Positions 8,115-23,366 of a DNA stretch of 64,000 nucleotides are shown here, piece after piece. Source of the DNA: Oceaniferula marina (GTDB lineage Bacteria; Verrucomicrobiota; Verrucomicrobiia; Verrucomicrobiales; Akkermansiaceae); the NCBI RefSeq assembly GCF_013391475.1, contig NZ_JACBAZ010000002.1, forward strand, positions 409,104 to 473,103, written 5' to 3'. The position numbers and the translations under genes were made by a program. The number at the start of each line of letters is the position of its first letter. Positions within the stretch are counted from its first letter, which is position 1. The notes below the pieces were generated by a model. It was not told the DNA's origin. It saw only the letters and a list, made by a program, of their open reading frames with translations, and did no database searches.

Positions 8115-8846
8115 ATGGCTAATTTTTTTCCGAGATGGTCCAATTTACTACCGCTTAAGATTGCGGTATGTGTAGTTTTTGTAGTGATGGGGCTGGTAGC
8201 AGCCTTTGCATATTATGGCACGCCGAAGGCCCAGCGTGTTGGATACCAGCCTGATCAGCCGATTGATTATGATCATGATCTGCATGCGAACCAGTTGGGG
8301 ATCGATTGCCGGTATTGCCACAGTTCGGTCGATAAGTCCGCGAGTGCCGGGGTGCCGACGGCGAATACCTGTTGGAATTGCCACCAGCACGTGCAGAAAG
8401 GGAATCCCAAATTAGCCCCCCTGCGTGCTGCGATGGGCGTGGATGAAAACCATACGCCGATTGAAGGAGCTGAGAAGAAGCCCATCAAGTGGGTCCGGAT
8501 TCACAAAACCCCTGACTATGCGTATTTCGATCACTCGGCCCACGTCAACCGCGGTGTTTCCTGTAAGAGCTGCCACGGTGACATTCACAAGATGCGTAAG
8601 GTGCATCACGTCGAGCCGCTGAGCATGGATTTCTGTTTGAACTGTCACCGCAAACCCGAGCTTCACCTCCGCCCACTCGAAGAGGTTTATAACTTGGACT
8701 ACGATGCCGAAGAGTATCTGGAGGAAAACAAAATCATCGACCCGGAGACGGATAAACGCATTACAACCCAAGAGGAGTTCGGCAAACTGCTGAAGAAAAA
8801 CTGGAACATCCAGCCGAAAGAAAGCTGCGCGACCTGTCACCGATAA
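8115..8846 (+). CDS. actA: Alternative complex III pentahaem cytochrome c subunit ActA
   Basis: ACIII oxidises membrane quinol and passes electrons to periplasmic carriers; ActA is its membrane-anchored multihaem subunit. The 243-residue protein has one N-terminal transmembrane anchor (about residues 14-34). Five CxxCH haem c sites lie at 65-69, 86-90, 150-154, 174-178 and 238-242, matching the pentahaem count of known ActA. Further His residues (HKTP, FDHSAH, KVHHVEP) could supply distal ligands. It opens the act operon. The ATG follows a perfect CCCCGCGGGG palindrome (8100-8109), which overlaps the only purine-rich stretch that could act as a ribosome site. Confidence 0.95.
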   Translation: MANFFPRWSNLLPLKIAVCVVFVVMGLVAAFAYYGTPKAQRVGYQPDQPIDYDHDLHANQLGIDCRYCHSSVDKSASAGVPTANTCWNCHQHVQKGNPKLAPLRAAMGVDENHTPIEGAEKKPIKWVRIHKTPDYAYFDHSAHVNRGVSCKSCHGDIHKMRKVHHVEPLSMDFCLNCHRKPELHLRPLEEVYNLDYDAEEYLEENKIIDPETDKRITTQEEFGKLLKKNWNIQPKESCATCHR

Positions 8847-8943: not shown

Positions 8944-11900
8944 ATGAGCAATCGGAAGACCACACCGCCCGCCGACACTCCCGTTAATGAGTCCGGCACC
9001 AAGATTTGGCGCAGCCTTGGCGAACTCGAACAGACACCACGATTCCAGAATGCTCTGGAGCGCGAATTTGTCGAAGGATCATCACACATGGAGACTGAGG
9101 AAGAACGTGAGATCTCTCGACGTTCATTTGTCAAACTCATGGGGGCATCCTCCGCATTGGCCGGATTTGGCCTGGCGGCCTGCCGCCGTCCGGAAAAACT
9201 GATTGTGCCCTTTGCTGAATCCCCCGAGTGGAGCATTCCAGGCAAGCCGGTCTATTATGCCTCATCGATGCCGCGGGCCAATGGTGCGGTGCCGATTGTC
9301 GTGACCACCCATGAGAATCGTCCGACGAAGATCGAGCCCAACAAGCGCTTTGATTCACTCACCGGAACCGATTCCTTTACTCAGGCTTCGGTCTTGGATA
9401 TGTATGACCCGGCGCGCTCCCGCGAATTCTTGCAGCAAGGGGAGAAGTCGAGCCGTGATGCCTTTGTCAAAGCTCTGGCAGCAATCAAGCCGGATGCCAA
9501 GATTGGCTTTGTCTTTGGTGAAGATGAGTCACCGACCCGGAGTCGTCTGGCCAAGGAGCTGCAGGCGAAGTTTGCTGGAGCGAAGTTTTACAGTTACGAG
9601 CCCTTGACCGGGGAAGCCCGCAAGCAGGCGAATGTCGATGCCTTTGGTTCCGGTGCGGACGTGGTGGCGGATTATTCCGATGCCAAGGTGGTGCTGTCTC
9701 TCGACAGTGATTTTCTTGAGCTTGACCAGCAGGGGCCGGTAAGTGGTTTCTATAAGAACCGTTTTGTGGAAGGTGCCGGATATGACAAGGCGCCAAACAA
9801 AGATGATTTGAACCGTCTCTATGTGGTTGAAGGTGGCTTCAGCCTGACCGGGGGCATGGCGGATCACCGTTTGCGGATCGCGCCCAGCCAGGTGCTTGGG
9901 ATTGCGGCAGAAATTGCCAAGCATCTCGGTGTTTCGGTGAGCGTCACTGGCTCCAAGCTCGATGCGCATCAGCAGAAGTGGGCACTCGAATGCGCCAATG
10001 ACCTGAAAGCCAACAAAGGAAAGAGTGTGGTTCTTGCCGGCAGCCGCCAGAGCAAGGAACTGCAGCAGGTCGTGATTGCGATCAACACCGCCCTTGAAAA
10101 CTACGGCAAGACGCTGAAGCCTGTCGTGACCGAGCGTGCAGGCTATGGCGATATCTCCGGCCTGATCAAGGACCTTGGAGCGAAGCAGCTCGATACCGTT
10201 TTTCTGCTGACCCCGGCAAACCCCTATTACGATGCCGATGGATTTGCCGCCGTCGCCGGCAACGCCCAAATCATTCACCTCGGATGCCGCAAGCATGCCA
10301 CGGCCAATGCCGCTGACTGGCACGTGCCGGCTGCCCATTACCTCGAAAGCTGGGGTGACTCCCGCACCGCACTTGGTGCGTATACCGTGGTGCAACCTTT
10401 GATTCTGCCCCTTTACGGTGGCGTTTCCGAGCTGGATCTCCTTGATGCCTTGTTGACCGGCAGCTTGTTCAACTCCGACAAGGATGGCGAAACGGCCTCA
10501 CCAGCATACGCTGCCGTGCGTAAGACCTTTGCCTCGCTCGCCGATGATTCGGATACCAGCTGGATGAAACTCCTGCGCGATGGATTCTGGAAGGAGTCGA
10601 CGTATGCGGCAGCGGCACCCGTGGCTGTGGCTCCTGTTTCGGTAACGGTTCCAGCCGCACCGGCGGTGGGCTCCTACGAAGTGATTTTCTCGACCGACGG
10701 ATCGATTTACGACGGACGTTATATCAACAACGCCTGGCTGCAGGAAGCACCGGACCCGATCAGCAAACTGACTTGGGACAACGTCGCCATGGTTTCGCCC
10801 CAGACCGCCAAGGATATGGGCTTGTATGAGAAGATTCTCAGGCTTGAACCGGACGGTAAGATTTACGGAGTGATCCCGGTGAAGAAAAATGCCGGCGTCG
10901 GTCCTGATGGTGAGGCGGAAAACCACACCAACCCGATGGTTAAACTGACGGTGAATGGACGCGAGCTCGACCTGCCGATCATGATTGGTTTTGGCCATGC
11001 GGATAACGTGATTTCGGTTTCTCTTGGATACGGACAAGGGTTTGACCAACACGATGAACTGGAACGAGGGCCTGAAAATGAGGCCGACGTCTCTCTGGTG
11101 AGTGTGAACCGTGGCTTCAATGCCTACACCTTGCGCAGTGCGGAAACGCCCTACTTGGTTGCCGGTGGCACGATCCAGGACCTGGACAAACGCTATCACA
11201 CGGCGATGACCCAGGAGCACCATGCGATGTATGGGCGGGCGCTTGCACGTGAGATCTCCACGGTTCCCACCGAAGGGGGCCACGGTCAGGGAGCGAAAGA
11301 CTTTGATGCCCAGCTGAAAAATGTGCGCAAGCAGGGGATGGATTCCCACGCTCCGGAAAATATTTCTCTCTACAAACCCAAGGGGTCGACGACCTGGCAC
11401 GATGAGGCCAAGGCGAACAAGCACCTCTTCGATGAGCGCCAGCAGTGGGCGATGACCATCGACCTGAGCAACTGCATCGGATGTAACGCCTGTCTGGTGG
11501 CTTGCCAGGCAGAAAACAACATCCCGGTCGTAGGTAAAGAACAGGTGGCCAAAGGCCGCGAGATGCACTGGATCCGGATGGACCGCTATTTTGCAGCAAC
11601 GCCGGTAATCGGTGAAGATGGGCACCTCAAGAAGGATGATCACGGACATCTGGTGGTGGACGAATCCAACCCCGAGATGATTCCCCAGCCGGTTGCCTGT
11701 GTGCAGTGCGAGTCCGCTCCCTGTGAAACCGTCTGCCCGGTGAACGCCACGGTGCACTCCGAGGACGGCCTGAATACCATGGCTTACAACCGTTGTATCG
11801 GAACCCGCTACTGCGCCAACAACTGCCCATACAAGGCGCGTCGATTCAATTTCTTTGATTACAACAAGCGCAACCCGCTGATCCACAAGAACCTTTACAA

Positions 11901-12375
11901 GGGACCCGCCGGTAAGAAGGCCGTGGGCGAAGCCCCGCACCTGCAGCGTAACCCGAACGTTTCCGTCCGGATGCGTGGTGTGATGGAGAAATGCACCTAC
12001 TGTGTGCAGCGGATCCAGGCTGCCAAGGGTAAGGTGAAATCCAACCTCAAGAAGAAGGCAATTGCCGCCGGTATACCATCCGAACAGGTCACGATCGAGG
12101 ACAAGGAGCTCCGGATTAAAACCGACTCCGTCACGGTGGCGTGTCAGGACGCCTGTCCTGCCAATGCAATCACCTTCGGAAACTTGCTCGACCCCAAGGC
12201 GAAAATCAGCCGGATCAAGAACAAGGACAACAGCATCAAGATCGACCGAGCTTACGACCTCTTGCACTACATCGGAACCCTGCCCCGGACATCTTATCTT
12301 GCCCGGGTGAAGAATCCGAACCCGAAGATGCCCGACGGTAAGACGGTTGGTCGTGCCACGGTCAACATGCACTAG
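8944..12375 (+). CDS. actB: Alternative complex III molybdopterin-like/iron-sulfur subunit ActB
   Basis: A 1143-residue fusion of a molybdopterin-oxidoreductase-like domain (up to about residue 800) and a four-cluster ferredoxin domain. The twin-arginine motif RRSFVK (59-64) is followed by a hydrophobic stretch ending LAAC80, which could be a lipobox, so export by Tat and possible lipidation are likely. Iron-sulfur cysteine sets are visible at [11 protein letters not shown] (from ~843), [13 protein letters not shown] (~919), [11 protein letters not shown] (~951) and CTYC (~1017) with CQDAC (~1066). ActB proteins are known not to bind molybdenum despite the fold. The fused architecture and length match ACIII ActB. 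The upstream spacer is pyrimidine-rich without a Shine-Dalgarno motif. Confidence 0.95.
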
Positions 12376-12479: not shown

Positions 12480-13946
12480 ATGTCGCACGAAACGACTATC
12501 CAAAAAGACCCGAACAAGCCGGTGATCCCGGTGATGGAGCGTGAACAGCTCGTTCTCAATAACCGCTCCTACAACTGGATCACGGAGCGTATCTGTGGCA
12601 TTCTGGAAAACAAGCAGCCTGCCATCTGGTGGATGCTGTTTATCCCGAGTGTGCTGATTGCCATCATCGGTGTTGGTGGCGGGCTGTTTTACCTGGTATC
12701 CACCGGTGTGGGTGTCTGGGGTAACAACAACCGCGCGATGTGGGGCTGGCCGATTGTGAACTTTGTGTTCTGGATTGGTATCGGTCACGCCGGAACCTTG
12801 ATTTCCGCGATTCTTTTCCTGACGCGCCAGAATTGGCGGACCTCGATTAACCGAGCGGCCGAGGCGATGACGATTTTTGCGGTTTGTTGCGCGGGTATTT
12901 ACCCGATGTTCCACGTTGGTCGTCTTTGGATGGTGTGGTTCCTCGCCCCGATTCCGAATGCCAATGCGATCTGGCAGAACTTTAAATCGCCCCTGCTCTG
13001 GGACGTGTTTGCGGTTTCAACCTATTTTACCATCTCCCTGATCTTCTGGTACCTCGGCATGGTGCCCGACCTGGCCACCATCCGTGACCGTGCCAAACCA
13101 GGCCTGCGCAAACTGCTTTACGGGATTTTCTCCCTCGGCTGGCGCGGTGGTAACCGCCAGTGGAGTCACTATGAAGTGGCTTACCTTCTGCTCGCTGCCC
13201 TTTCCACCCCGCTTGTGCTTTCGGTGCACTCGATCGTGAGTTTTGACTTTGCGACCTCGGTGGTGCCCGGCTGGCATACTACGATTTTCCCACCTTACTT
13301 TGTGGCGGGTGCTGTGTTTGGTGGATTTGCCATGGTGCTGACCATCATGATCCCGGCCCGTTATATCTACGGCTTGCACGACATGATCACGATGAAGCAC
13401 ATCGAAAACATGTCGAAGATCATCCTGCTGACCGGAACGATCGTGGGATACGCATACCTGATGGAGCTCTTTGTCGCATTCTACTCAGGGGCAAAATACG
13501 AGGGCGCCGCATTCTATTTCCGTCTCGCGGGCCCCTACTGGTGGTCGTACATCGCGATGATGGGATGTAACGTGATTGCTCCGCAGCTTTTCTGGTTCAA
13601 ATTCTGCCGTGAAAACCTCTGGGTGGTCATGGGCGTCTGTATGGCGGTGAACGCCGGTATGTGGTTTGAGCGATTTGTGATCATTGTGACCACCCTGCCA
13701 CGGATGTGGCTGCCAGGTGACTGGAAATACTACAACCCGAGTTGGGTCGACATCATGACCTACGTCGGAACCATCGGTATGTTCCTCACCTTGTTCCTTC
13801 TTTTCCTGAAGTTCCTCCCGTGCATCAACATCGCCGAGGTGAAATGGACACTGCCGAAGAGTGATCCGCACTTCGACGACAAGGAGGCCATCGATGACCA
13901 GGGCACCGAGGCGGTTGCTCCTTACCAGCACGAATTGCAGAACTAA
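12480..13946 (+). CDS. actC: Alternative complex III NrfD/PsrC-like membrane subunit ActC
   Basis: A 488-residue polytopic protein with about ten transmembrane helices and the NrfD-type pattern ([20 protein letters not shown], then [20 protein letters not shown]). In ACIII, ActC faces ActB and carries a quinol-binding site. The C-terminal ~40 residues are acidic and soluble. The 104-base gap after actB is the longest in the act part of the operon. It contains a low-complexity stretch (ACCACGGAAGACACTGAAGA) of a kind scattered between genes in Verrucomicrobiota. No Shine-Dalgarno motif precedes the ATG. Confidence 0.93.
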
Positions 13947-13981: not shown

Positions 13982-14533
13982 ATGACTCCTAAACGTGTTT
14001 ACGGCTACCTCGCCGAGTTCGAAAGCGCCTCTGCCCTCTACAAGGCAGCGGAGAAGGTGCGTGATGCAGGCCACAAGAAGTGGGACTGCTACTCACCCTA
14101 TCCGATTCACGGCCTGGACAAAGCGATGGGTATGAAAAAATCGATTCTCCCATGGTTGGTCTTCTGTGGTGGATCGCTGGGATTTTTGACGGCGATCACG
14201 CTGGCCTACACCACTCAGGTGGTGATTTACCCGACGGTCGTCCAGGCGAAGCCTGCCAACATTTTTACGACGGCGGCATTTTTCCCGATCATGTTCGAGC
14301 TGACGGTTCTGCTATCTGGATTTACCACCTTGTTTGGATTGCTGGCCTTGATGGGGCTTCCCCGTCTCAACCACCCTTTGTTTGAGAGTGAGCAATTTGC
14401 CCGTGCGACCGACGACGGCTTTTTTATCGCGATCGAAGCCCGTGACCCACGGTTCTCCTCGGAAGAAACGAAAACCCTGCTGGAAGACGCCGGCGGTTCC
14501 AACATCGAACTTGTCGAGGAGCCCGAAGCCTAA
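13982..14533 (+). CDS. actD: Alternative complex III subunit ActD (DUF3341)
   Basis: A 183-residue protein beginning with the DUF3341 signature (VYGYLAEFESASALYKAAEK...DCYSPYPIHGLDKAMG). Two transmembrane helices follow (about residues 57-80 and 94-117), then a soluble C-terminal tail. This is the usual ActD architecture; the subunit helps assemble the membrane part of ACIII and has no redox cofactor. It lies 35 bases downstream of actC behind a CT-rich leader with no Shine-Dalgarno motif. Length is normal. Confidence 0.93.
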   Translation: MTPKRVYGYLAEFESASALYKAAEKVRDAGHKKWDCYSPYPIHGLDKAMGMKKSILPWLVFCGGSLGFLTAITLAYTTQVVIYPTVVQAKPANIFTTAAFFPIMFELTVLLSGFTTLFGLLALMGLPRLNHPLFESEQFARATDDGFFIAIEARDPRFSSEETKTLLEDAGGSNIELVEEPEA

Positions 14534-14589: not shown

Positions 14590-15213
14590 ATGCGCTACTT
14601 CTTTTTAGCCTATGCCCTGATCATTGTAATGGTGATCGGTTTCTTCGGATTCCGTGGACAAATGTTCAGTGGAACGCCACTGCGCCTATTCCCGGATATG
14701 GATGATCAGGACAAAGTCAAAACCCAGACGGTGAGCAACTTCTTTGCCGACGGTATGAGTGCCCGTAAGCCGGTTGTGGGCACGGTGCCCCGCGGATTTG
14801 AAATCGACGGTTCGGGTATCAGTTTTGGCAACAGCACGGCTTACAGCCACACCGGTGTGATCGGTGATGCATACGGTGACGGCATTCCTTTCGAAGAGCT
14901 TGGCCTCGCCGATATCGATCCTCAGGCATTTCTCCGTCATGGCCAGGAGCGTTTCAATATCTCCTGCATGCCGTGCCACGGTGAGTCCGGCAATGGCAAG
15001 GGAGCCGCCGCAGTGAAGGGAAATATTCCAGCCACGGACCTGACCGGCTTTGCCAAACCCACCTACCCTGACGGTAAGATGTTTGAAACCATCACCAAAG
15101 GCAAAGGCCAGATGAGTGGCTATGGTTACAATATTCCGGTGCAAGACCGCTGGGCGATCATCGCTTACGTCCGAGCCCTGCAAGCCGCCCGCAGCGTTCC
15201 CGCTGACCAGTAA
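14590..15213 (+). CDS. actE: Alternative complex III monohaem cytochrome c subunit ActE
   Basis: A 207-residue protein with an N-terminal membrane anchor (residues 4-21) and a class I cytochrome c domain. The single haem site is CMPCH at 126-130. The later GKGQMSGYGYNIP (about residues 170-182) supplies the probable methionine ligand. In ACIII, ActE is the likely exit point for electrons towards soluble or oxidase-bound cytochromes. The gene keeps the canonical act order and spacing. There is no Shine-Dalgarno motif before the ATG. Confidence 0.93.
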   Translation: MRYFFLAYALIIVMVIGFFGFRGQMFSGTPLRLFPDMDDQDKVKTQTVSNFFADGMSARKPVVGTVPRGFEIDGSGISFGNSTAYSHTGVIGDAYGDGIPFEELGLADIDPQAFLRHGQERFNISCMPCHGESGNGKGAAAVKGNIPATDLTGFAKPTYPDGKMFETITKGKGQMSGYGYNIPVQDRWAIIAYVRALQAARSVPADQ

Positions 15214-15258: not shown

Positions 15259-16614
15259 ATGGGTCACTTCGTAACATCCAAAGACATCCCAGCCGACGGC
15301 GAACATATCGCTCCGGGTAAACTTGCACTGCCGATGATGGTATGTGGCGTGATTGCCTTGCTTGGGATCATCCTCAGCGTGTACTTGTTGTTCATCCACG
15401 GTGATTCGACTGAGGTCAACCAACCGGCCGATACCGTGCAGGGGCAGTATGCTTACTCGTGGTTGTTTGCCTTTATCTTTTTCATCAGCATCACCTTGGG
15501 TGGCACGTTCTGGATGTTGCTCCACCACGTTTCCAACTCTGGTTGGGGAATCGCCGTGCGTCGCTTGATGGAGAATCTGGCGTCTGTTTTTCCATGGTTT
15601 GCCATCCTTGCCATTCCCTTCTTTTTCCCCGAGGTGCAGAAGCACTTGTATGAGTGGATGAACGAACACCGGATCGCAGGAACCGGCACCTATGGCAGTG
15701 TGACTCCAGAGGTCAAAGAAACCCTGTATGCCAACCATCAGGCATTGCTTGCCGCCAAGGAGTTCTACATGAACCTGCCGTTCTGGTTTGGCCGGATGGT
15801 GTTCTACTTCGTCGCCCTCGGTGGTGGGATCATTTGGTTGAAGAAAATTTCCGTTGCCCAAGACCACGACCCGAACCCGGGCGTTGAGCGTCTGATTTTC
15901 TCCCGCAAACTCAGTATGTTTTTCCTCGTGGTGTTTGGTTTGACTGCGACCTTCCTCGTGTTTGACCTGGTCAAGGCACTTGATTTCAAATGGTTCTCGA
16001 CGATGTACGGCGTTTATTTCTTTGCGGGTTGCGTGCTCAATGGCATGGCCTTGCTGATTTTGACTTCCATCCTGCTGCGTCGTGCCGGATACCTGCAGAC
16101 GGTGATGAGCCCTGAGCACCATCACGTCATGGGTAAACTGACCTTTGCCTTTGTGGTCTTCTGGGGATACGTCACCTTCTCCCAGTTTTTCCTGATCTGG
16201 TATGCCAACATTACCGAGGAAACGAGCTACTTCCTATTGCGTAACACCGGCAACTGGAACACCGCGAGTGTCTGCCTCGTCTTCGGCCACTTCGCCTTGC
16301 CTTTCCTCTTCCTGCTGCGCTCCGATGTGAAGAAAAAGCCGGGTCTGATGATTCCGATCACGATCTACTTGTTCACCCTTCATGCGCTCGACCACTACAT
16401 CATGGTCACGCCGGAACGTGGACCCTCCCTGACGATGTTCAGCGAAGGAGGACCACAGCTGTTTTCCACTGGGAACGTCTTCTGGCTCGACCTGATTGCC
16501 TTTGTTACGATCGGTTGTTTCTTCGCCTATTTCTATATGCGGGCACTGACCAAGAGCAGCCTGTTCCCACACCGCGACCCGCGCATTCTCGAATCCGCCA
16601 ACTTGTTCAACTAA
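15259..16614 (+). CDS. actF: Alternative complex III NrfD/PsrC-like membrane subunit ActF
   Basis: A 451-residue protein with about ten transmembrane helices, the second NrfD-like subunit of ACIII. Recognisable features are the conserved WMLLHHVSNSGWGIAVRRLM segment near residues 80-100 and HHHVMGKLTFAFVVFWGYVTF near residue 295. ActF pairs with ActC to form the membrane base of the complex and has been discussed as a possible proton path. The stop codon is 21 bases before the chosen start of the next cytochrome gene, so the two are probably cotranslated. Small ActG- or ActH-like proteins were not seen in the window. Confidence 0.93.
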   Translation: MGHFVTSKDIPADGEHIAPGKLALPMMVCGVIALLGIILSVYLLFIHGDSTEVNQPADTVQGQYAYSWLFAFIFFISITLGGTFWMLLHHVSNSGWGIAVRRLMENLASVFPWFAILAIPFFFPEVQKHLYEWMNEHRIAGTGTYGSVTPEVKETLYANHQALLAAKEFYMNLPFWFGRMVFYFVALGGGIIWLKKISVAQDHDPNPGVERLIFSRKLSMFFLVVFGLTATFLVFDLVKALDFKWFSTMYGVYFFAGCVLNGMALLILTSILLRRAGYLQTVMSPEHHHVMGKLTFAFVVFWGYVTFSQFFLIWYANITEETSYFLLRNTGNWNTASVCLVFGHFALPFLFLLRSDVKKKPGLMIPITIYLFTLHALDHYIMVTPERGPSLTMFSEGGPQLFSTGNVFWLDLIAFVTIGCFFAYFYMRALTKSSLFPHRDPRILESANLFN

Positions 16615-16635
16615 GTGACTAATTTCCCTCAGGAT

Positions 16636-17535
16636 ATGACTACCCAGTATTCCAACCATCGCGACACACCGATCCGCAGATTCAGCAGTTTTTGCTGGGG
16701 ACTAGCAGCCTTTGGCTCCTTCGGTCTGGTGTCGGTCATTGCCTATTACTCGACTTCCGGAAATGCCGGTGATGTCGAAACCTTGCGCGCGACCGAACGC
16801 CTGGCCTTGAAAGCCGAAGTGGAAGCCGCCCAATCGGCACTTCTGGTCGAAAAAGATGTCGAAGCGGGAAAAAGCAAGCAGGTGCCACCGGCCAAGGTGT
16901 TTGATCGCCTCGGCAATGAGATTAAAAGCAAGCCCGGCAAGTCGGACACCTTTGTCCCCGGAAGTGAAGCTCACAAAAAGCAGCTGGAAGCCCTGAGCCA
17001 AGGCCCTGGCGACGGTGAGGGCTTGAAACTGTTCCAGGAAAAAACCTGCGCAACCTGTCACGGCATGGATGGCAATCGTCCGATCGCCCCGATGTATCCA
17101 AAACTTGGTGGCCAGAATGTCGATTATGTGCTCGCCCAGATGAAGGATTTTAAGGATGGCAAACGCACCAACGGCCAGGCTGTGGTGATGAAGCCGCTGA
17201 TGGAAGCCCTGAGCGACGACGAAATGCAGAAGCTGGCGAAGTGGATTTCCGAGCAAAAGCTTGAGATCGAACTCAAGGAAGATCACCCCGGTGCAGCCGC
17301 CTACATCGCCAAAGGATGTGTCGCTTGTCACGGCCCGGATGCCAAGACCCCGCTTGCACCGAACTATCCGAACCTGCGCGGGCAGAGCAAGGATTACATT
17401 GTCAACCAGATGAAGGACATCAAGTCAGGTGCCCGGAACAATGGCACCAGTGCTGCCATGCAAGCGATTATGACCGGCGTCAGCGATGACGAAATCGAGG
17501 TCATTGCCGAGTGGTTGAGCACCCCGGCGAAATAG
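16636..17535 (+). CDS. Membrane-anchored dihaem cytochrome c (c4/c553-like)
   Basis: A 299-residue protein with an N-terminal transmembrane anchor (about residues 18-38), then an Ala/Glu/Lys-rich linker, then two tandem class I cytochrome c domains. Haem sites are CATCH (138-142) and CVACH (228-232). Both domains share the YPxLxGQ and QMKDxKxGxRxNG patterns of cytochrome c4/c553, with downstream Met as probable axial ligand. It sits where some ACIII operons carry an extra cytochrome and could move electrons from ActE to the downstream CcoO/CcoP-like proteins. ATG 16636 was chosen; an in-frame GTG at 16615 directly after the actF stop would add seven residues. Confidence 0.88.
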   Translation: MTTQYSNHRDTPIRRFSSFCWGLAAFGSFGLVSVIAYYSTSGNAGDVETLRATERLALKAEVEAAQSALLVEKDVEAGKSKQVPPAKVFDRLGNEIKSKPGKSDTFVPGSEAHKKQLEALSQGPGDGEGLKLFQEKTCATCHGMDGNRPIAPMYPKLGGQNVDYVLAQMKDFKDGKRTNGQAVVMKPLMEALSDDEMQKLAKWISEQKLEIELKEDHPGAAAYIAKGCVACHGPDAKTPLAPNYPNLRGQSKDYIVNQMKDIKSGARNNGTSAAMQAIMTGVSDDEIEVIAEWLSTPAK

Positions 17536-17591: not shown

Positions 17592-19034
17592 ATGTCCACT
17601 CAAAGTCACGAATCAACCGTTGAGGATACCCAACTGCGATCAGAGATTGATCGTTCGTTGCGGCATCCTGTGATGTTTTTCTTCACCAGTGGAGCGGCCT
17701 GGCTTGCCGTTGCGCTTTTCCTTGCGATTGTTTCCATGGCGAAGCTTTACGCTCCCGGGTTTTTGGGTGAGTGCTCCGGGTTGCAATACGGCCGGGTGTT
17801 TCCTGCGCACTTGAATGTGTTGGTTTACGGATGGGGTGCCCAGGCAGGATTTGGTGTGCTGATTTGGTTGATGGCCCGTCTGTCACGCCAGCCCAGCAAA
17901 AATGCTGGTACGATTTTGGTTGCCGGACATATTTGGAATTTTGCCGTTGCCGTGGGAACGATTGGAATTCTCTGCGGTCACGGAACCGGTAAACATTGGA
18001 TGCAGTTCCCGACCTTCGTCTGGCCGGTGCTTCTCGGCGCCTACGCTGCGATTGCGATCTGGGTGGTGATCAGCTTCCGTATCCGCCGTGGTGATTCGAC
18101 CTATATCTCCCAGTGGTACTTGCTTGGCGCGACCATTTGGTTCCCTTGGATTTATTTGACGGCCAACCTTTACGTCAATGTGTTTGATGTGCAGCCATTG
18201 ATGGCCGCCGCGATCAACGCCTGGTTCCGCTTTGCCCTGATCTTCTTGTTCTTCACGCCGATTGCGATTGCATCGATCTATTACATCGTGGCGAAGATTA
18301 CCGCCCGCCCAATCTATAACTCGACCTATTCGATGGCTGGGTTCTGGGCGCTTGCCGTGATTGCCCCTTGGGCAGGAATGCAGGCACTGATGGGTGCTCC
18401 CATCCCGGTCTTTGTCCAGTATGCCGGAGCTGCCGCAACCATTCTCATCGCCGTGCCTTTGCTGCTCAGTGGAGTGAATATTTTGAAAACAACCTCGGGA
18501 CAGACCGAGGCCATCGCTAACAGCCCATCGCTGCGGTTCAGTATTGCCGCTACGGTTGGCATGTTGATCCTTGCCCTGATGAGTGTGATCCTCGCTCACC
18601 CCGCCGCCCTGAAGTTCACCCAGTTTACCATCGCCGGTTACGGCTATGAGCTGCTTGCTCTGTATGGCTTTTTCAGCATGGCGATGTTTGGTGCGATTTA
18701 TTTCATTGTCCCCCGGATCACACGACGTGAGTGGCTTTCAGCCCGGATGATCCGAACCCACTTCTGGTTCTCCATCTATGGCATTCTTTTTGTTGTGATC
18801 TTCTGTGCCTTGCTTGGTGGCTTCCAGCAGGGTGCCGCCCAGGAAAATCACGTTCATCCGTGGAGGCAAGCAGTGGAGGCGGTTTCTCCCTTTGCCATTG
18901 GTATGACCGTCGCCTGGTGCTTTATCCTGATCTCCAACATGTTCTTCTTCCTTCACCTCACGCTGATGTGGTTGCGTCTCGGCCGCCGCAGTGCGCACCC
19001 GACCCTGCTGCGTCGTGAAAGTGCCAGCGCCTAA
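17592..19034 (+). CDS. CcoN-like cbb3 oxidase subunit I lacking all CuB ligands and all but one haem ligand
   Basis: A 480-residue, ~12-helix protein that aligns across its length with cbb3 oxidase subunit CcoN. Matched segments include PAHLNVLVYGWG in TM2, QWYLLGATIWFPWIY, ARPIYNSTYSMAGFWAL and YFIVPRI. The catalytic positions are replaced. The first CuB histidine is F214 (in WFRFALIFLFFT). The cross-linked tyrosine is A258. The CuB His-His pair after WAG is Q264-A265. The HVH pair that binds haems b3 and b is the GYGYE stretch around residues 349-353. Only H73, one of two low-spin haem b ligands, remains. The frame is intact. It should therefore not reduce O2 or NO and may be a membrane scaffold for the two following cytochromes. 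An upstream in-frame start inside the previous gene was rejected for ATG 17592. Confidence 0.9.
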   Translation: MSTQSHESTVEDTQLRSEIDRSLRHPVMFFFTSGAAWLAVALFLAIVSMAKLYAPGFLGECSGLQYGRVFPAHLNVLVYGWGAQAGFGVLIWLMARLSRQPSKNAGTILVAGHIWNFAVAVGTIGILCGHGTGKHWMQFPTFVWPVLLGAYAAIAIWVVISFRIRRGDSTYISQWYLLGATIWFPWIYLTANLYVNVFDVQPLMAAAINAWFRFALIFLFFTPIAIASIYYIVAKITARPIYNSTYSMAGFWALAVIAPWAGMQALMGAPIPVFVQYAGAAATILIAVPLLLSGVNILKTTSGQTEAIANSPSLRFSIAATVGMLILALMSVILAHPAALKFTQFTIAGYGYELLALYGFFSMAMFGAIYFIVPRITRREWLSARMIRTHFWFSIYGILFVVIFCALLGGFQQGAAQENHVHPWRQAVEAVSPFAIGMTVAWCFILISNMFFFLHLTLMWLRLGRRSAHPTLLRRESASA

Positions 19035-19069: not shown

Positions 19070-19792
19070 ATGACCTTTAAAACTTTTCTCATTGGAATGT
19101 TCGCCAGCTTCGGTCTGGCGTGGACGTGCATTATTGCCATCCCGGTGGCGAGTACGGACGCTCGTCCGCCTGTGAAAATGAACGACGATGAAGACGCCGC
19201 CTATTACCAGCATGGTGTCGCCGGACGGAAACTCAATGGAGGTGAAATCTATAAGGCAAATGGATGTTATACCTGCCACACCCAGTTGGTTCGCCCAACC
19301 TATGCCGGATCGGAAATTCACCGCGAAGGCATTGCCGGAGTAAAAAATGACGATGGCGATACCCGCCGTGAGACGAGCTACGCCGACTTCACAGGTGAGG
19401 ACTTTGCCCAGATCGGTCTGATGCGGATGGGGCCGGACCTGAGTAACTTTGCCTATCGTGCTGAGGCATATGGAAGCAAAGTTGGCATGACTGCCGAAGC
19501 CTGGATTTTCGAGCACCTTTACAACCCGCGTAACAATGAGATCCGCCTTGGGAAGCACGGAGAGAAACTCGACATGAGTTGGTCAAATTGTCCGTCGCAG
19601 AAGCAGATGTTTGAAACCGTTGATGCCGTTGGGCAGGATGGTGTTTTTGCCCTGACTGCTGATGCGGGTGAGGGTCGTGTGATTCGTCCGAAGCAAGATG
19701 CCAGAGTGCTGGCCAGCTATTTGTTATCTTTCAAGCGTGATGACAAGATGCCCAAATCACTGGATTACAGTGGCAAGGATGAAGAAGAGTAA
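19070..19792 (+). CDS. CcoO-like membrane-anchored monohaem cytochrome c
   Basis: A 240-residue protein with an N-terminal membrane helix (residues 5-26). Its haem site GCYTCHTQLVRP (CxxCH at 66-70) is the family signature of CcoO. The usual later sections are present: MGPDLSNFAYR, then EHLYNPRN and a C-terminal helix with ARVLASYLLSFKR. It lies 35 bases after the CcoN-like gene, in the order of cbb3 operons. CcoO normally hands electrons to the binuclear centre of CcoN. Here CcoN lacks that centre, so the electron acceptor is unknown. Start at ATG 19070 without a Shine-Dalgarno motif. Confidence 0.88.
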   Translation: MTFKTFLIGMFASFGLAWTCIIAIPVASTDARPPVKMNDDEDAAYYQHGVAGRKLNGGEIYKANGCYTCHTQLVRPTYAGSEIHREGIAGVKNDDGDTRRETSYADFTGEDFAQIGLMRMGPDLSNFAYRAEAYGSKVGMTAEAWIFEHLYNPRNNEIRLGKHGEKLDMSWSNCPSQKQMFETVDAVGQDGVFALTADAGEGRVIRPKQDARVLASYLLSFKRDDKMPKSLDYSGKDEEE

Positions 19793-19849: not shown

Positions 19850-20596
19850 ATGTCCCAGCAACCTACCAGCCAACCGGATCTTGACGATCGTTCGAGTGTG
19901 CTAACAGACGCCGCTGCAGCGCAACGTGAAAACCATATGTTTACCGAAGGTGCCGAGCCCTTATCGATTTGGTTTATCCTCGGTAGTGCCATTGTGGTTT
20001 TGATCGGTGGTGGTGTGCTCTTCGGCGGTGGTAATCTGTTTAATTACACCAAGACGGTCAAACCGGGATATGAGCGTGCTGCAGCCGAAGGTGAGGAGAA
20101 TTCAGGACCTAAACCCAAACCTGCCATGGTCGCCTATAACAAGGTGGGAGGGAAAATTTATTCTTCCTGCGCCGGTTGCCACGGCAACGATGGCATCGGA
20201 ACGGATGCCTATCCTCCACTGGCCAACTCGGAGTGGGTGAATGGTCCGAGTTTGCGTCCGGCGATGATTATTCTCAACGGATGTAAAGACCCGATCACGG
20301 TTGCTGGTAAAACCTACAACGGTGTGATGCCTGCTCAGGGATCCGGGATGGGTGCGAAGGAGCTTGCCGGTATCCTCAACTATATCCGGAATAACTTTGG
20401 CAATAAAAACGATCAGCTGATTACATTGGAAATGGCACAGGATGCCCTCGATGCCAGCAAGGAGCGGAATGGTGGTGCAATGACTGCTACAGAGCTCGAT
20501 GCCGACTACAAGCGGGATCTCAAAGGTGAACCGCTGGATCCGGCCACCATGGTCAACCCCAAGACCCTTCAACCGGTAGCTCCCGCTTCCGAGTAG
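19850..20596 (+). CDS. CcoP-like membrane-anchored monohaem cytochrome c
   Basis: A 248-residue protein with a soluble N-terminus, one transmembrane helix (about residues 38-60) and one class I cytochrome c domain, haem site CAGCH at 107-111. The later GVMPAQGSGM probably supplies the axial methionine. Placement after CcoN- and CcoO-like genes marks it as the CcoP position, but true CcoP normally has two haems; the second is missing here. The C-terminal ~60 residues are charged and unusual. It appears to be the last gene of the operon; the next 374 bases hold only repeats. Confidence 0.8.
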   Translation: MSQQPTSQPDLDDRSSVLTDAAAAQRENHMFTEGAEPLSIWFILGSAIVVLIGGGVLFGGGNLFNYTKTVKPGYERAAAEGEENSGPKPKPAMVAYNKVGGKIYSSCAGCHGNDGIGTDAYPPLANSEWVNGPSLRPAMIILNGCKDPITVAGKTYNGVMPAQGSGMGAKELAGILNYIRNNFGNKNDQLITLEMAQDALDASKERNGGAMTATELDADYKRDLKGEPLDPATMVNPKTLQPVAPASE

Positions 20597-20833: not shown

Positions 20834-20927
20834 GTAGGACAGCTTTTCAAGCTGTCGGCAGGCTTGGGAACAAGATCTTGTAGCTTGGGTTCACCAAGGT
20901 TGCCGACAGGATGCAATCCTGTCCTAC
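20834..20927 (+). repeat. Single REP-like palindrome doublet
   Basis: The stretch begins GTAGGACAGCTTTTCAAGCTG and ends ATCCTGTCCTAC. It holds two palindromes of the same type as those in the five-copy array at 2979-3749, bounded by the inverted GTAGGACAG/CTGTCCTAC. The middle differs from the array units. It lies 44 bases upstream of pxpA and could form a cruciform or transcript hairpin. Confidence 0.85.
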
Positions 20928-20970
20928 TTTGGTGCTTCACCCGGATAGTTGTTTGGGGCATGATCCGACC

Positions 20971-21705
20971 ATGAAACTGAATGCAGACGTGGGCGAGGGC
21001 TTTGGTCCGTGGTCGGTAGGGGACGACGCCGCATTGATGCCATACTTGGACATGGCGAACATCGCTTGTGGCTTCCATGCCTCGGACCCGGATGGCATGG
21101 ACCGGACGGTTTGTTTGGCTTTGGATCACGGAGTGATGGTCGGCGCACATCCGGGGTACCGCGACCTTGAAGGTTTCGGACGTCGATCAATCCCTCACGA
21201 AGCGGAATCGATCACCCGCCTGGTGGCTTATCAAGTTGGCGCACTACAGGCGATATGCGACTTGCATGGTGCTCAAGTTGAATACGTCAAACCGCACGGG
21301 GCACTCTATCACGATATGATGCGATGTGAGGCAACGTTTGAAGCTGTTCTTACTGCGGTGGCAGCCATGCCCGGTCATCCGGCATTGATGATTTTAGCCG
21401 GAGCACAAAACGAGAAGCGAAAACAAATGGCGGAATGTCATCAGGTGCCCTTGTTGATGGAGGCTTTTGCTGACCGGGCCTACTCCGATGGGGGATCTTT
21501 GCTGCCTCGCGGTCAACCAGGTGCGGTTTATGCATCGACCCAACAGATGGTGGATCAGGTGATGCAGATAAAAACTTCCGGGACGGTGACGAGTGTAAAT
21601 GGCAGGGAGTTTCCTCTATCCGCCGATACGGTGTGCGTGCATGGGGACAATGCAGAATCGATTGCCGCCGTAGCCCGCATCCGCAAGGCATTGCAGACTG
21701 GGTAA
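20971..21705 (+). CDS. pxpA: 5-oxoprolinase subunit A (LamB/YcsF family)
   Basis: PxpA works with PxpB and PxpC in ATP-dependent cleavage of 5-oxoproline (pyroglutamate) to glutamate. The 244-residue protein shows the family motifs LNADVGEGFG at the N-terminus, ACGFHASDPDGM, GAHPGYRDLEGFGRR, VKPHGALY and SDGGSLLPRG. The start was set at ATG 20971, which begins MKLNADVGEG; an upstream in-frame ATG at 20911 lies inside the REP doublet and adds non-conserved residues. It is followed by pxpB after one base, forming a compact operon. Confidence 0.95.
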   Translation: MKLNADVGEGFGPWSVGDDAALMPYLDMANIACGFHASDPDGMDRTVCLALDHGVMVGAHPGYRDLEGFGRRSIPHEAESITRLVAYQVGALQAICDLHGAQVEYVKPHGALYHDMMRCEATFEAVLTAVAAMPGHPALMILAGAQNEKRKQMAECHQVPLLMEAFADRAYSDGGSLLPRGQPGAVYASTQQMVDQVMQIKTSGTVTSVNGREFPLSADTVCVHGDNAESIAAVARIRKALQTG

Positions 21706-21706
21706 A

Positions 21707-22411
21707 ATGATGAAGGAAACGAAGCTGCGGATCGAACCGGTGTCGGAAACGAGTTGGATTCTCTACCTCGGTGAAGAGATAGATGTTCATCTGGCGCCGT
21801 TGATTGGTCAGTTTTCTGAGCGTATCGCGAATCGATGCCCGGAAGTGATCGAGGTGACGCCATCTTATACATCGATTTTGGTCGAGTTGGATGTGCTGCA
21901 CGCCGATTTCGATAAATTTCCTAACCGGGTTCGGCGATTGCACTCCGAACTGGTGCAGGGTAAGAGCGATGACTCCAGTCGTTTACATCTCTTGCCGGTG
22001 TATTATTCTCCCGAGGTGGCCCCTGATTTGATAGAACTTGCCGACCACTGCGGGGTGCCGGTCGAGGAGGTGATTCGATTGCATAGCTCCTGTGAGTATC
22101 ATGTTTGTGCGATTGGTTTTGCTCCTGGCTTTGCTTTTTTAGCTGAGCTTGACGAGCGGATTGCACATCCGAGGAAGACCACTCCGCGGAAGAAAGTGGC
22201 CGCCGGCAGTGTGGGTATTGCCGATCGGCAAACGGCGGTTTATCCGTCGGAGTCGCCTGGTGGTTGGCAGATCATTGGCCGTTGTCCGGAGCTCTTGTTT
22301 GATCGCATGAAGGATCCGGTTTCTCCCTTTGTTGTTGGTGATCGGGTGAAGTTTGAACCCATTTCAAAGGATGAATATCTGCGTGCGGGAGGGGAGATCG
22401 GGAATGGTTAA
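21707..22411 (+). CDS. pxpB: 5-oxoprolinase subunit B (KipI family)
   Basis: A 234-residue PxpB/KipI protein with the motifs IGFAPGFAFLAEL, PRKKVAAGSVGIADRQTAVY and PGGWQIIGRCP. It forms part of the 5-oxoprolinase complex. Some Bacillus members act as KipI-type inhibitors of a sporulation kinase, but the full pxpABC context supports the metabolic role. It starts one base after pxpA and its end overlaps the start of pxpC by eight bases, pointing to translational coupling. Cytosolic, normal length. Confidence 0.95.
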   Translation: MMKETKLRIEPVSETSWILYLGEEIDVHLAPLIGQFSERIANRCPEVIEVTPSYTSILVELDVLHADFDKFPNRVRRLHSELVQGKSDDSSRLHLLPVYYSPEVAPDLIELADHCGVPVEEVIRLHSSCEYHVCAIGFAPGFAFLAELDERIAHPRKTTPRKKVAAGSVGIADRQTAVYPSESPGGWQIIGRCPELLFDRMKDPVSPFVVGDRVKFEPISKDEYLRAGGEIGNG

Positions 22412-23366
22412 GGGGCTCAGGGTGGTCAGGCCGGGAATTCGGTCGGAGCTTCAAGATTGGGGGCGATACGGTTTTGCTCCCCAGGGGATGAGTCAAGGGG
22501 GACCGATTGATGTGCATGCGTATGCCTGGGCGAATAAGCTGCTAGAGAACAGGATGGAAGCTCCGCTTATTGAGTTGACGGTGGGTAGAGCTACCTTTCA
22601 AGCGGAGCAGGAGCTATGCCTCGCCTTGACGGGGGCGGATATGCAGGCACGGCTTGACGCTTGCCCGATCGAACACTGGCGAACGTTCAGGATGAAGCCG
22701 GGGCAGATCTTGACCCTGGGCGCTGCGCGGGATGGCATGCGGGCATATCTGGCGGTGAGAGGTGGTTTTCAAGTGCCTTCGAGCCAGGAGAGTGTCTCCA
22801 CGGTTGCAAGAAATAGGATGGGCGGGCTGGAAGGTGATGGACGTTCCCTGCAAGCGGGGGATCGTTTACCCTGTCTGTCTGACCACGGATCGAAGTGTGG
22901 TTCAGCAGGTCATGGCTTGGCATCGCTTGGAAATGTCAGGGTTCCGCCACGAATGATCCCTGAGTATCGGCAATCGGTTTGTTTACGCGTGGTGGAGTCG
23001 TATCAATCGAGTCTTTTTTCTAGCTCCGAGATGGACGCCTTTTACCGGCAGACCTATTCCTTGAGTGCACTGGGTGATCGGATGGGGGCCCGCTTGGAGG
23101 GGGCTGAAATAAGGGTTCCGTCATCAGGGGTGATCTCGGAAGGTTTGGCATTGGGCTCGGTCCAGATTCCGCCTGACGGGCAGCCGATTATTTTACTCAA
23201 TGACCGTCAAACCTTGGGAGGTTACCCGAAGTTAGGGTGTGTGGCTCGGGTGGATTTGCCAAAATTGGCTCAATTGCGCCCCGGAGCACAGGTTTCCTTT
23301 GTCCCTGTAGCGCTGGAGGATGCTAGGGCTGCATGGTTGGGCTTTTGTCGGTTTTTTGTAAGGTAA
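22404..23366 (+). CDS. pxpC: 5-oxoprolinase subunit C (KipA/biotin-dependent carboxyltransferase-like)
   Basis: A 320-residue PxpC protein. Motifs: RPGIRSELQDWGRYGF near the N-terminus, GMSQGGPIDVHAYAWAN, LALTGADM, and GSVQIPPDGQPIILLNDRQT with TLGGYPKLG near the C-terminus. ATG 22404 was chosen because it gives the conserved start (MVKGLRVVRPG). A longer frame from 22353 would overlap pxpB deeply and is unlikely. It completes the operon. Cytosolic. Confidence 0.95.
   Translation: MVKGLRVVRPGIRSELQDWGRYGFAPQGMSQGGPIDVHAYAWANKLLENRMEAPLIELTVGRATFQAEQELCLALTGADMQARLDACPIEHWRTFRMKPGQILTLGAARDGMRAYLAVRGGFQVPSSQESVSTVARNRMGGLEGDGRSLQAGDRLPCLSDHGSKCGSAGHGLASLGNVRVPPRMIPEYRQSVCLRVVESYQSSLFSSSEMDAFYRQTYSLSALGDRMGARLEGAEIRVPSSGVISEGLALGSVQIPPDGQPIILLNDRQTLGGYPKLGCVARVDLPKLAQLRPGAQVSFVPVALEDARAAWLGFCRFFVR

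Follow-up and report, generated by a model that had tools for sequence, protein, structure and literature searches.

A CcoN-like subunit without the ligands of the haem-copper centre in ACIII operons of Verrucomicrobiota

In the window, i.e., the whole 64,000-nucleotide stretch of DNA analysed here, the genes for ActA, ActB, ActC, ActD, ActE, ActF, a dihaem cytochrome, a CcoN-like subunit (N), a CcoO-like subunit (O) and a CcoP-like subunit (P) follow each other in this order on the plus strand with gaps of 0-104 bases. ActA (8115..8846) is a pentahaem cytochrome c with Pfam cytochrome c7/c3 matches and five CxxCH motifs. ActB (8944..12375), the molybdoenzyme-like and iron-sulfur subunit, has Fer4 matches and is assigned by position and by homology across loci; we take it to have the molybdoenzyme-like part of ActB proteins. 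ActC (12480..13946) is an NrfD-like membrane subunit (PF03916), ActD (13982..14533) matches PF11821 with 203.9 bits, and ActE (14590..15213) is a monohaem cytochrome c (PF13442, PF00034) with one CxxCH. The membrane subunit ActF (15259..16614) has no match among the Pfam and NCBIfam models and is assigned by its position and the conserved act order. Thus, actA to actF are all present and ordered as in an operon for alternative complex III (ACIII), ActF by position only. The dihaem cytochrome c (16615..17535) starts with GTG, directly abuts ActF without a gap and contains two cytochrome c stretches with two CxxCH motifs. N (17592..19034) is an open frame of 480 aa, assigned by profile matches, alignment and a structure model. 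It is followed by two monohaem cytochromes c with one intact CxxCH each, O (19070..19792; PF02433, 31.1 bits at a cut-off of 29.6) and P (19850..20596; PF00034, PF13442). These genes agree with the preliminary description of the locus, made from the sequence, which placed N in an intact respiratory operon. In the window's family, ActF and N are often separated by a c-type cytochrome of varying kind, as they also are in L081 and L082; it was seen in L091, L092, L140, L141, L143, L145, L148-L150, L152, L153 and others, and some of the matches for it show no CxxCH. Genes at 20911-23366 resemble, by eye from their translations, 5-oxoprolinase subunits and stand where sister species have coxA, which suggests a local rearrangement.

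The same preliminary description regarded N as a CcoN homologue that keeps the cbb3 frame, and this is borne out by profile match, alignment and modelled fold. N matches PF00115 (COX1) with 139.5 bits at a cut-off of 34.8 and over nearly the full model length. A structure model built from 68 sequences (pLDDT 93.1, pTM 0.92) has the CcoN fold, with Foldseek TM-scores of 0.88/0.90 to 3mk7_A and, by VIA, a Z of 48.4 and an rmsd of 2.1 over 447 residues to 3mk7_D. A NorB-like enzyme was considered and rejected: CcoN chains outrank NorB in the fold comparisons, and a sequence search up to E 1 gave five CcoN sequences as its only matches. N therefore resembles the CcoN of cbb3 (C-type) oxidases in fold, in sequence homology and in having CcoO- and CcoP-like partners, of which O is monohaem as in a cbb3 oxidase. 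Canonical CcoP carries two haems, whereas P has a single CxxCH and scores 35.7 bits with the ccoP model, under the cut-off of 180.

The deviation of N itself lies in the six His and one Tyr of functional cbb3-type oxidases, residues that we take to hold haem b, haem b3, CuB or the Tyr cross-link. With P. stutzeri CcoN as the reference (3mk7_A numbering), only H60 is kept, as H73, i.e., one of the seven. The CuB ligands H207, H257 and H258 are replaced by F214, Q264 and A265, the cross-link Tyr Y251 by A258, and H345 and H347 of the HVH motif by Y352 and L354. N is thus without the ligands of CuB and haem b3, the bis-His ligands of haem b and the cross-link Tyr. F214, Q264, A265, A258 and the lone H73 had been named correctly beforehand; the replacement of HVH had been recognized as well, but under the numbers 347/349 instead of 345/347. 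In what follows, an N with all seven residues is called live, and one that, as in the window, lacks most of them is called dead. With the ccoN equivalog model, N scores 95 bits, under the cut-off of 583; this shortfall alone is not decisive because three live act-linked relatives also score below the cut-off (224-254). Among the titles, abstract openings and chosen passages of the literature covered, a scope that leaves Refojo 2010 and 2012 outside, we found no description of a CcoN without its ligands.

Dead N is widespread. Homologues occur in 85 of the 97 genomes of the same family (own genome included) and in none of the 10 genomes of genus g3; in a draw across the phylum at E 1e-30, 103 of 387 genomes have one. 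Among the matches listed in the family, some of them cut by contig ends, none has an internal stop, and among the 103 listed phylum matches two contain one in-frame TGA each (live G244 and dead G372). Sequencing error, named in the preliminary description as something that would refute the observation, is therefore an unlikely cause of the ligand loss: the family homologues are numerous and, as listed, free of internal stops, and the 80 named-genome relatives described next lack the centre as well, albeit in a set biased towards the dead clade. A set from named genomes, comprising the best 80 of 251 confirmed places and including Rubritalea, Luteolibacter, Haloferula, Persicirhabdus and Roseibacillus, is dead in 80 of 80 cases, which is no rate because likeness to the dead clade was the basis of selection; 69 keep one and 11 keep two of the seven ligands. 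At these loci, 79 genes for O and 79 for P were identified, each with a single CxxCH.

To span the family and phylum matches in Verrucomicrobiota, 101 loci were chosen (L055-L154 and the window; nine of the 80 named-genome N tails equal rows of this set). All seven ligands are present in 30 of them, zero to three in 71 and four to six in none. The act operon is not beside N in five of the 30 live loci (L055, L071-L074); the other 25 have act genes upstream in 24 cases, and in L105 the contig ends first. O and P have one CxxCH each in 70/70 dead loci with both genes, and P has a single CxxCH in live loci as well. The act-N-O-P layout is common to live and dead loci and thus probably goes back to an ancestral ACIII-cbb3 unit. 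In G097 (listed as 99% complete), PF00115 matches the live act-linked N alone, and neither bd nor PF13631 has a match; the live form is therefore probably a real terminal oxidase. More than one PF00115 match is present in 22 of 23 live genomes, and a further strong one (best E 3.1e-125 or lower; judged by score) in all 31 dead genomes checked. The window's genome also encodes an A-type COX1, with coxA ~370 kb from the locus, and a CcoN-CcoO fusion with all seven ligands that reaches 613 with the ccoN model (cut-off 583); PF13631 (bc1-type cytochrome b) and bd have no match in this genome, which is listed as 97% complete. One genome holds both kinds, a dead act-linked N (L153 on G090:C15) and a second, ligand-bearing N-O-P set with no act genes in the surrounding DNA available (L055 on G090:C2).

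Open frames and substitution rates bear on whether the gene is decaying into a functionless pseudogene, a reading that we consider highly improbable. Two features would fit decay: ligand position 207 differs even inside a genus (F, Q or H), and dead N evolves faster than ActC, with the in-frame TGA of dead G372 as a further sign. However, the listed same-family matches are free of internal stops, the gene is present throughout most of the family, the fold is kept, and dN/dS is well under 1. In 12 usable pairs of 16 dead pairs, dN/dS is 0.05-0.29 (median 0.13), and in four usable live pairs it is 0.046-0.139; six of the 22 pairs were left out for saturated dS (four dead, two live), and several pairs share lineages. 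Both pairs that involve the window are among those left out (dN/dS 0.08 and 0.11 at dS 2.4 and 1.8). The ratio of dN/dS in N to that in ActC has a median of 2.3 in nine dead pairs versus 1.0 in three live pairs, and constraint on dead N therefore seems partly relaxed.

The positions lost are not spread evenly. Across 26 live N, 161 columns are nearly invariant; the window's clade keeps 59 of them at 90% or more and has lost 32, and these 32 include five of the seven ligand columns (hypergeometric p 0.004). In the Opitutaceae-like clade, five of the seven are among 26 lost columns (p 0.001); in both tests the columns are not independent. Judged from these alignments, ligand loss is more than drift at random columns. 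R57, E122 and H337, which presumably have propionate roles, are also lost in the window's clade.

This pattern bears on the earlier suggestion that N binds no haem at all. The loss of the centre stands; total absence of haem is likely rather than settled, given that H60 is present in 80/80 named-genome relatives. We think it improbable that N retains a cofactor or ligand function through H60, e.g., as a single-ligand haem b, a quinone site or a proton path. Such a function would account for the constancy of H60, which extends to 30/30 of the clade-A set, but the partner position H347 is I, V or L in 80/80, the three presumed propionate residues have gone too, and both the methanotrophs and the Opitutaceae-like dead clade have lost H60 itself. 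The partial same-family sequence L058 has Q at position 60.

The number of losses depends on the tree. The N tree, built with the ligand columns masked, needs three live/dead changes. The Act tree, a quick LG+G4 tree without mixture of ActB, ActC and ActF for 88 of the 101 loci (13 loci without usable ActC plus ActF or ActB were omitted), needs nine changes, eight of them forced by starred branches, and 11 if regain is barred. A single loss is disfavoured on these counts. The long branches of dead N may be drawn together in the N tree; the Act tree should suffer less from such fast branches. The clearest single case is L075: both trees put this dead locus within a clade that is otherwise live, and on the Act tree a live clade stands closest to it, with dead L064 just outside. 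When placements from the Act tree were tried on the N data (a quick tree with 61 of the 102 tree rows), none was rejected: p-AU is 0.853 when L064 and L075 join five live rows and 0.773 when L107 is included as well, 0.258 when L109 joins four live rows and 0.64 when L081/L082 do. The groups were named with the Act tree already in view, and non-rejection is no proof of a clade. The mismatch between the N and Act trees could also stem from horizontal transfer of N-O-P in its dead form. Altogether, ligand loss is likely recurrent and the number of losses uncertain. The preliminary description proposed testing whether dead forms are one clade under purifying selection; purifying selection is supported, and a single clade seems improbable.

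The gene downstream offers a clue to function. Eight of the 101 loci were set aside because they are not act-linked or have too little downstream sequence. In the others, 35 of 68 dead loci have coxA after P on the same strand, versus one of 25 live loci. It does so in 28/30 loci of the window's clade, the window itself being an exception, and in 5/5 methanotroph loci, consistently placed ~1.4-1.8 kb past N; the sister species G012 retains coxA in place (L188). Among the 80 named-genome loci, coxA follows P in 67, eight are too short and five are without it. Most of these cases belong to a single clade and the methanotrophs and therefore represent few independent events. The only live act-linked locus seen with coxA after P is L131 (L192, G336), where coxB precedes coxA as in dead L194 (L079, G357), unlike in the window's clade.

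Known supercomplexes give this arrangement a context. In ACIII-caa3 of Rhodothermus marinus and ACIII-aa3 of Flavobacterium johnsoniae, act genes are likewise followed by oxidase genes. According to passages of the respective papers, direct electron transfer to the A-type oxidase is proposed for both, with contact made by a haem c on subunit II in R. marinus and by a sixth ActA haem in F. johnsoniae (PMC5928083, PMC8552683). By contrast, in the window's clade act and the A-type oxidase are separated by a dead C-type N-O-P set, subunit II of that oxidase is without haem c, and ActA is without the sixth haem. The 73 distinct subunits II from coxA loci all lack CxxCH, and the CuA motif is present in 72 of them; ActA has five haems in 41/41 distinct complete sequences, 28 beside dead N and 13 beside live N. 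Therefore, the link is missing unless a further cytochrome, e.g., O, P or the dihaem protein, supplies it, and the haems of O and P on dead N would be a natural one. The dihaem cytochrome, where present, may be another.

We therefore favour, at little better than even confidence, a reading in which dead N is a decommissioned cbb3 core, kept in the membrane as a dock where the haems of O and P are positioned to wire ACIII to an A-type oxidase. As the live act-N-O-P operons suggest, an ancestral ActABCDEF followed by CcoN-O-P would have coupled menaquinol oxidation to a C-type oxidase. Sequence and model show that several lineages, including the window's, lost the sites for haem b, haem b3, CuB and the Tyr and retained the membrane frame and both c-haem partners. 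N would now most likely anchor O and P beside ACIII. In the window's clade, their haems may pass electrons to CuA of the A-type aa3 oxidase that is mostly encoded just downstream, and outside it to other periplasmic acceptors. Of the earlier proposal of a non-oxidase role under selection, the centre loss and the purifying selection hold, and docking or wiring is the role that seems to fit best. More tentatively, and with more doubt than belief, these operons may represent a third ACIII-to-A-type wiring in Verrucomicrobiota, in which an entire cbb3 oxidase was converted into a permanent bridge of c-type haems, its core having been disabled some ten separate times with the ACIII-N-O-P gene set retained.

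Several observations count against the dock and wire. CuA could receive its electrons from ActE or the dihaem cytochrome with no part for O and P, the reading does not account for the constancy of H60 in the window's clade, and the window's own coxA is distant. Moreover, coxA is absent from the downstream DNA examined in 33/68 dead loci, every Opitutaceae-like one included; besides the Opitutaceae-like ones, loci without it in this DNA include L145, L077, L115 and L132. These 33 loci would also suit a role of N solely as an assembly or stability factor required for membrane insertion of O and P (or ACIII), with O and P feeding soluble cytochrome c or other acceptors and no bridge to aa3; so would the nos cluster inside the ACIII cluster of Methylacidiphilum caldifontis IT6, with aa3 and 'cbb3' genes beside it in the section of the report drawn on here (PMC11102522), which suggests several acceptors. 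We regard this role as rather unlikely, as it sits poorly with the consistent placement of coxA in the window's clade and the methanotrophs and with subunits II without haem c.

As a frame that outlived its cofactors, the dock would have a counterpart within ACIII. Cofactor loss in domain B1 of ActB is general in the ACIII complexes known, whereas that in dead N is patchy among close lineages. In the portions of the structural work used, domain B1 has a molybdoenzyme-like fold with no prosthetic group reported (PMC5928083).

The dead form has already entered the literature as an enzyme. The ACIII-adjacent set of Methylacidiphilum and Opitutaceae, the same gene set as the window's, is named a cbb3 oxidase and treated as working in passages of the Kam1 paper and of an FEMS review; the former ties it to high O2 affinity (PMC6688271, PMC8498564). 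However, in Methylacidiphilum Kam1 (G238, L069) and SolV (G132, L129), whose genomes here agree with the published pmoA counts of four and three, the act-linked N reads SESSHFV at the seven positions; on this evidence, the published 'cbb3 oxidase' of both is the dead form. The other listed PF00115 matches comprise two with A-type score, one with a ba3-type motif and one NorB (assigned by sequence) in Kam1, and two with A-type score, two with a ba3-type motif and one NorB (same motif as Kam1's) in SolV, where the act-linked A-type copy is assigned by score alone. The remaining match in each is taken as the dead N because it ranks below these, and a canonical CcoN should rank higher. If the centre is absent, physiological models that count the ACIII-adjacent set as a high-affinity terminal oxidase need revision, and oxidase counts from ccoN matches in Verrucomicrobiota are unsafe. 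The ACIII-oxidase gene set, live in some loci and dead in others, also provides a natural series in which the gain of a III-IV supercomplex from physical contact is directly testable. A term search of the Kam1 paper and the FEMS review, in the parts accessible to it, found no mention of cydA or a bd oxidase in Kam1. Kam1 has a strong cydA (bd oxidase) match at G238:C1:832979-834265, and this gene is a better candidate than dead N for its high O2 affinity.
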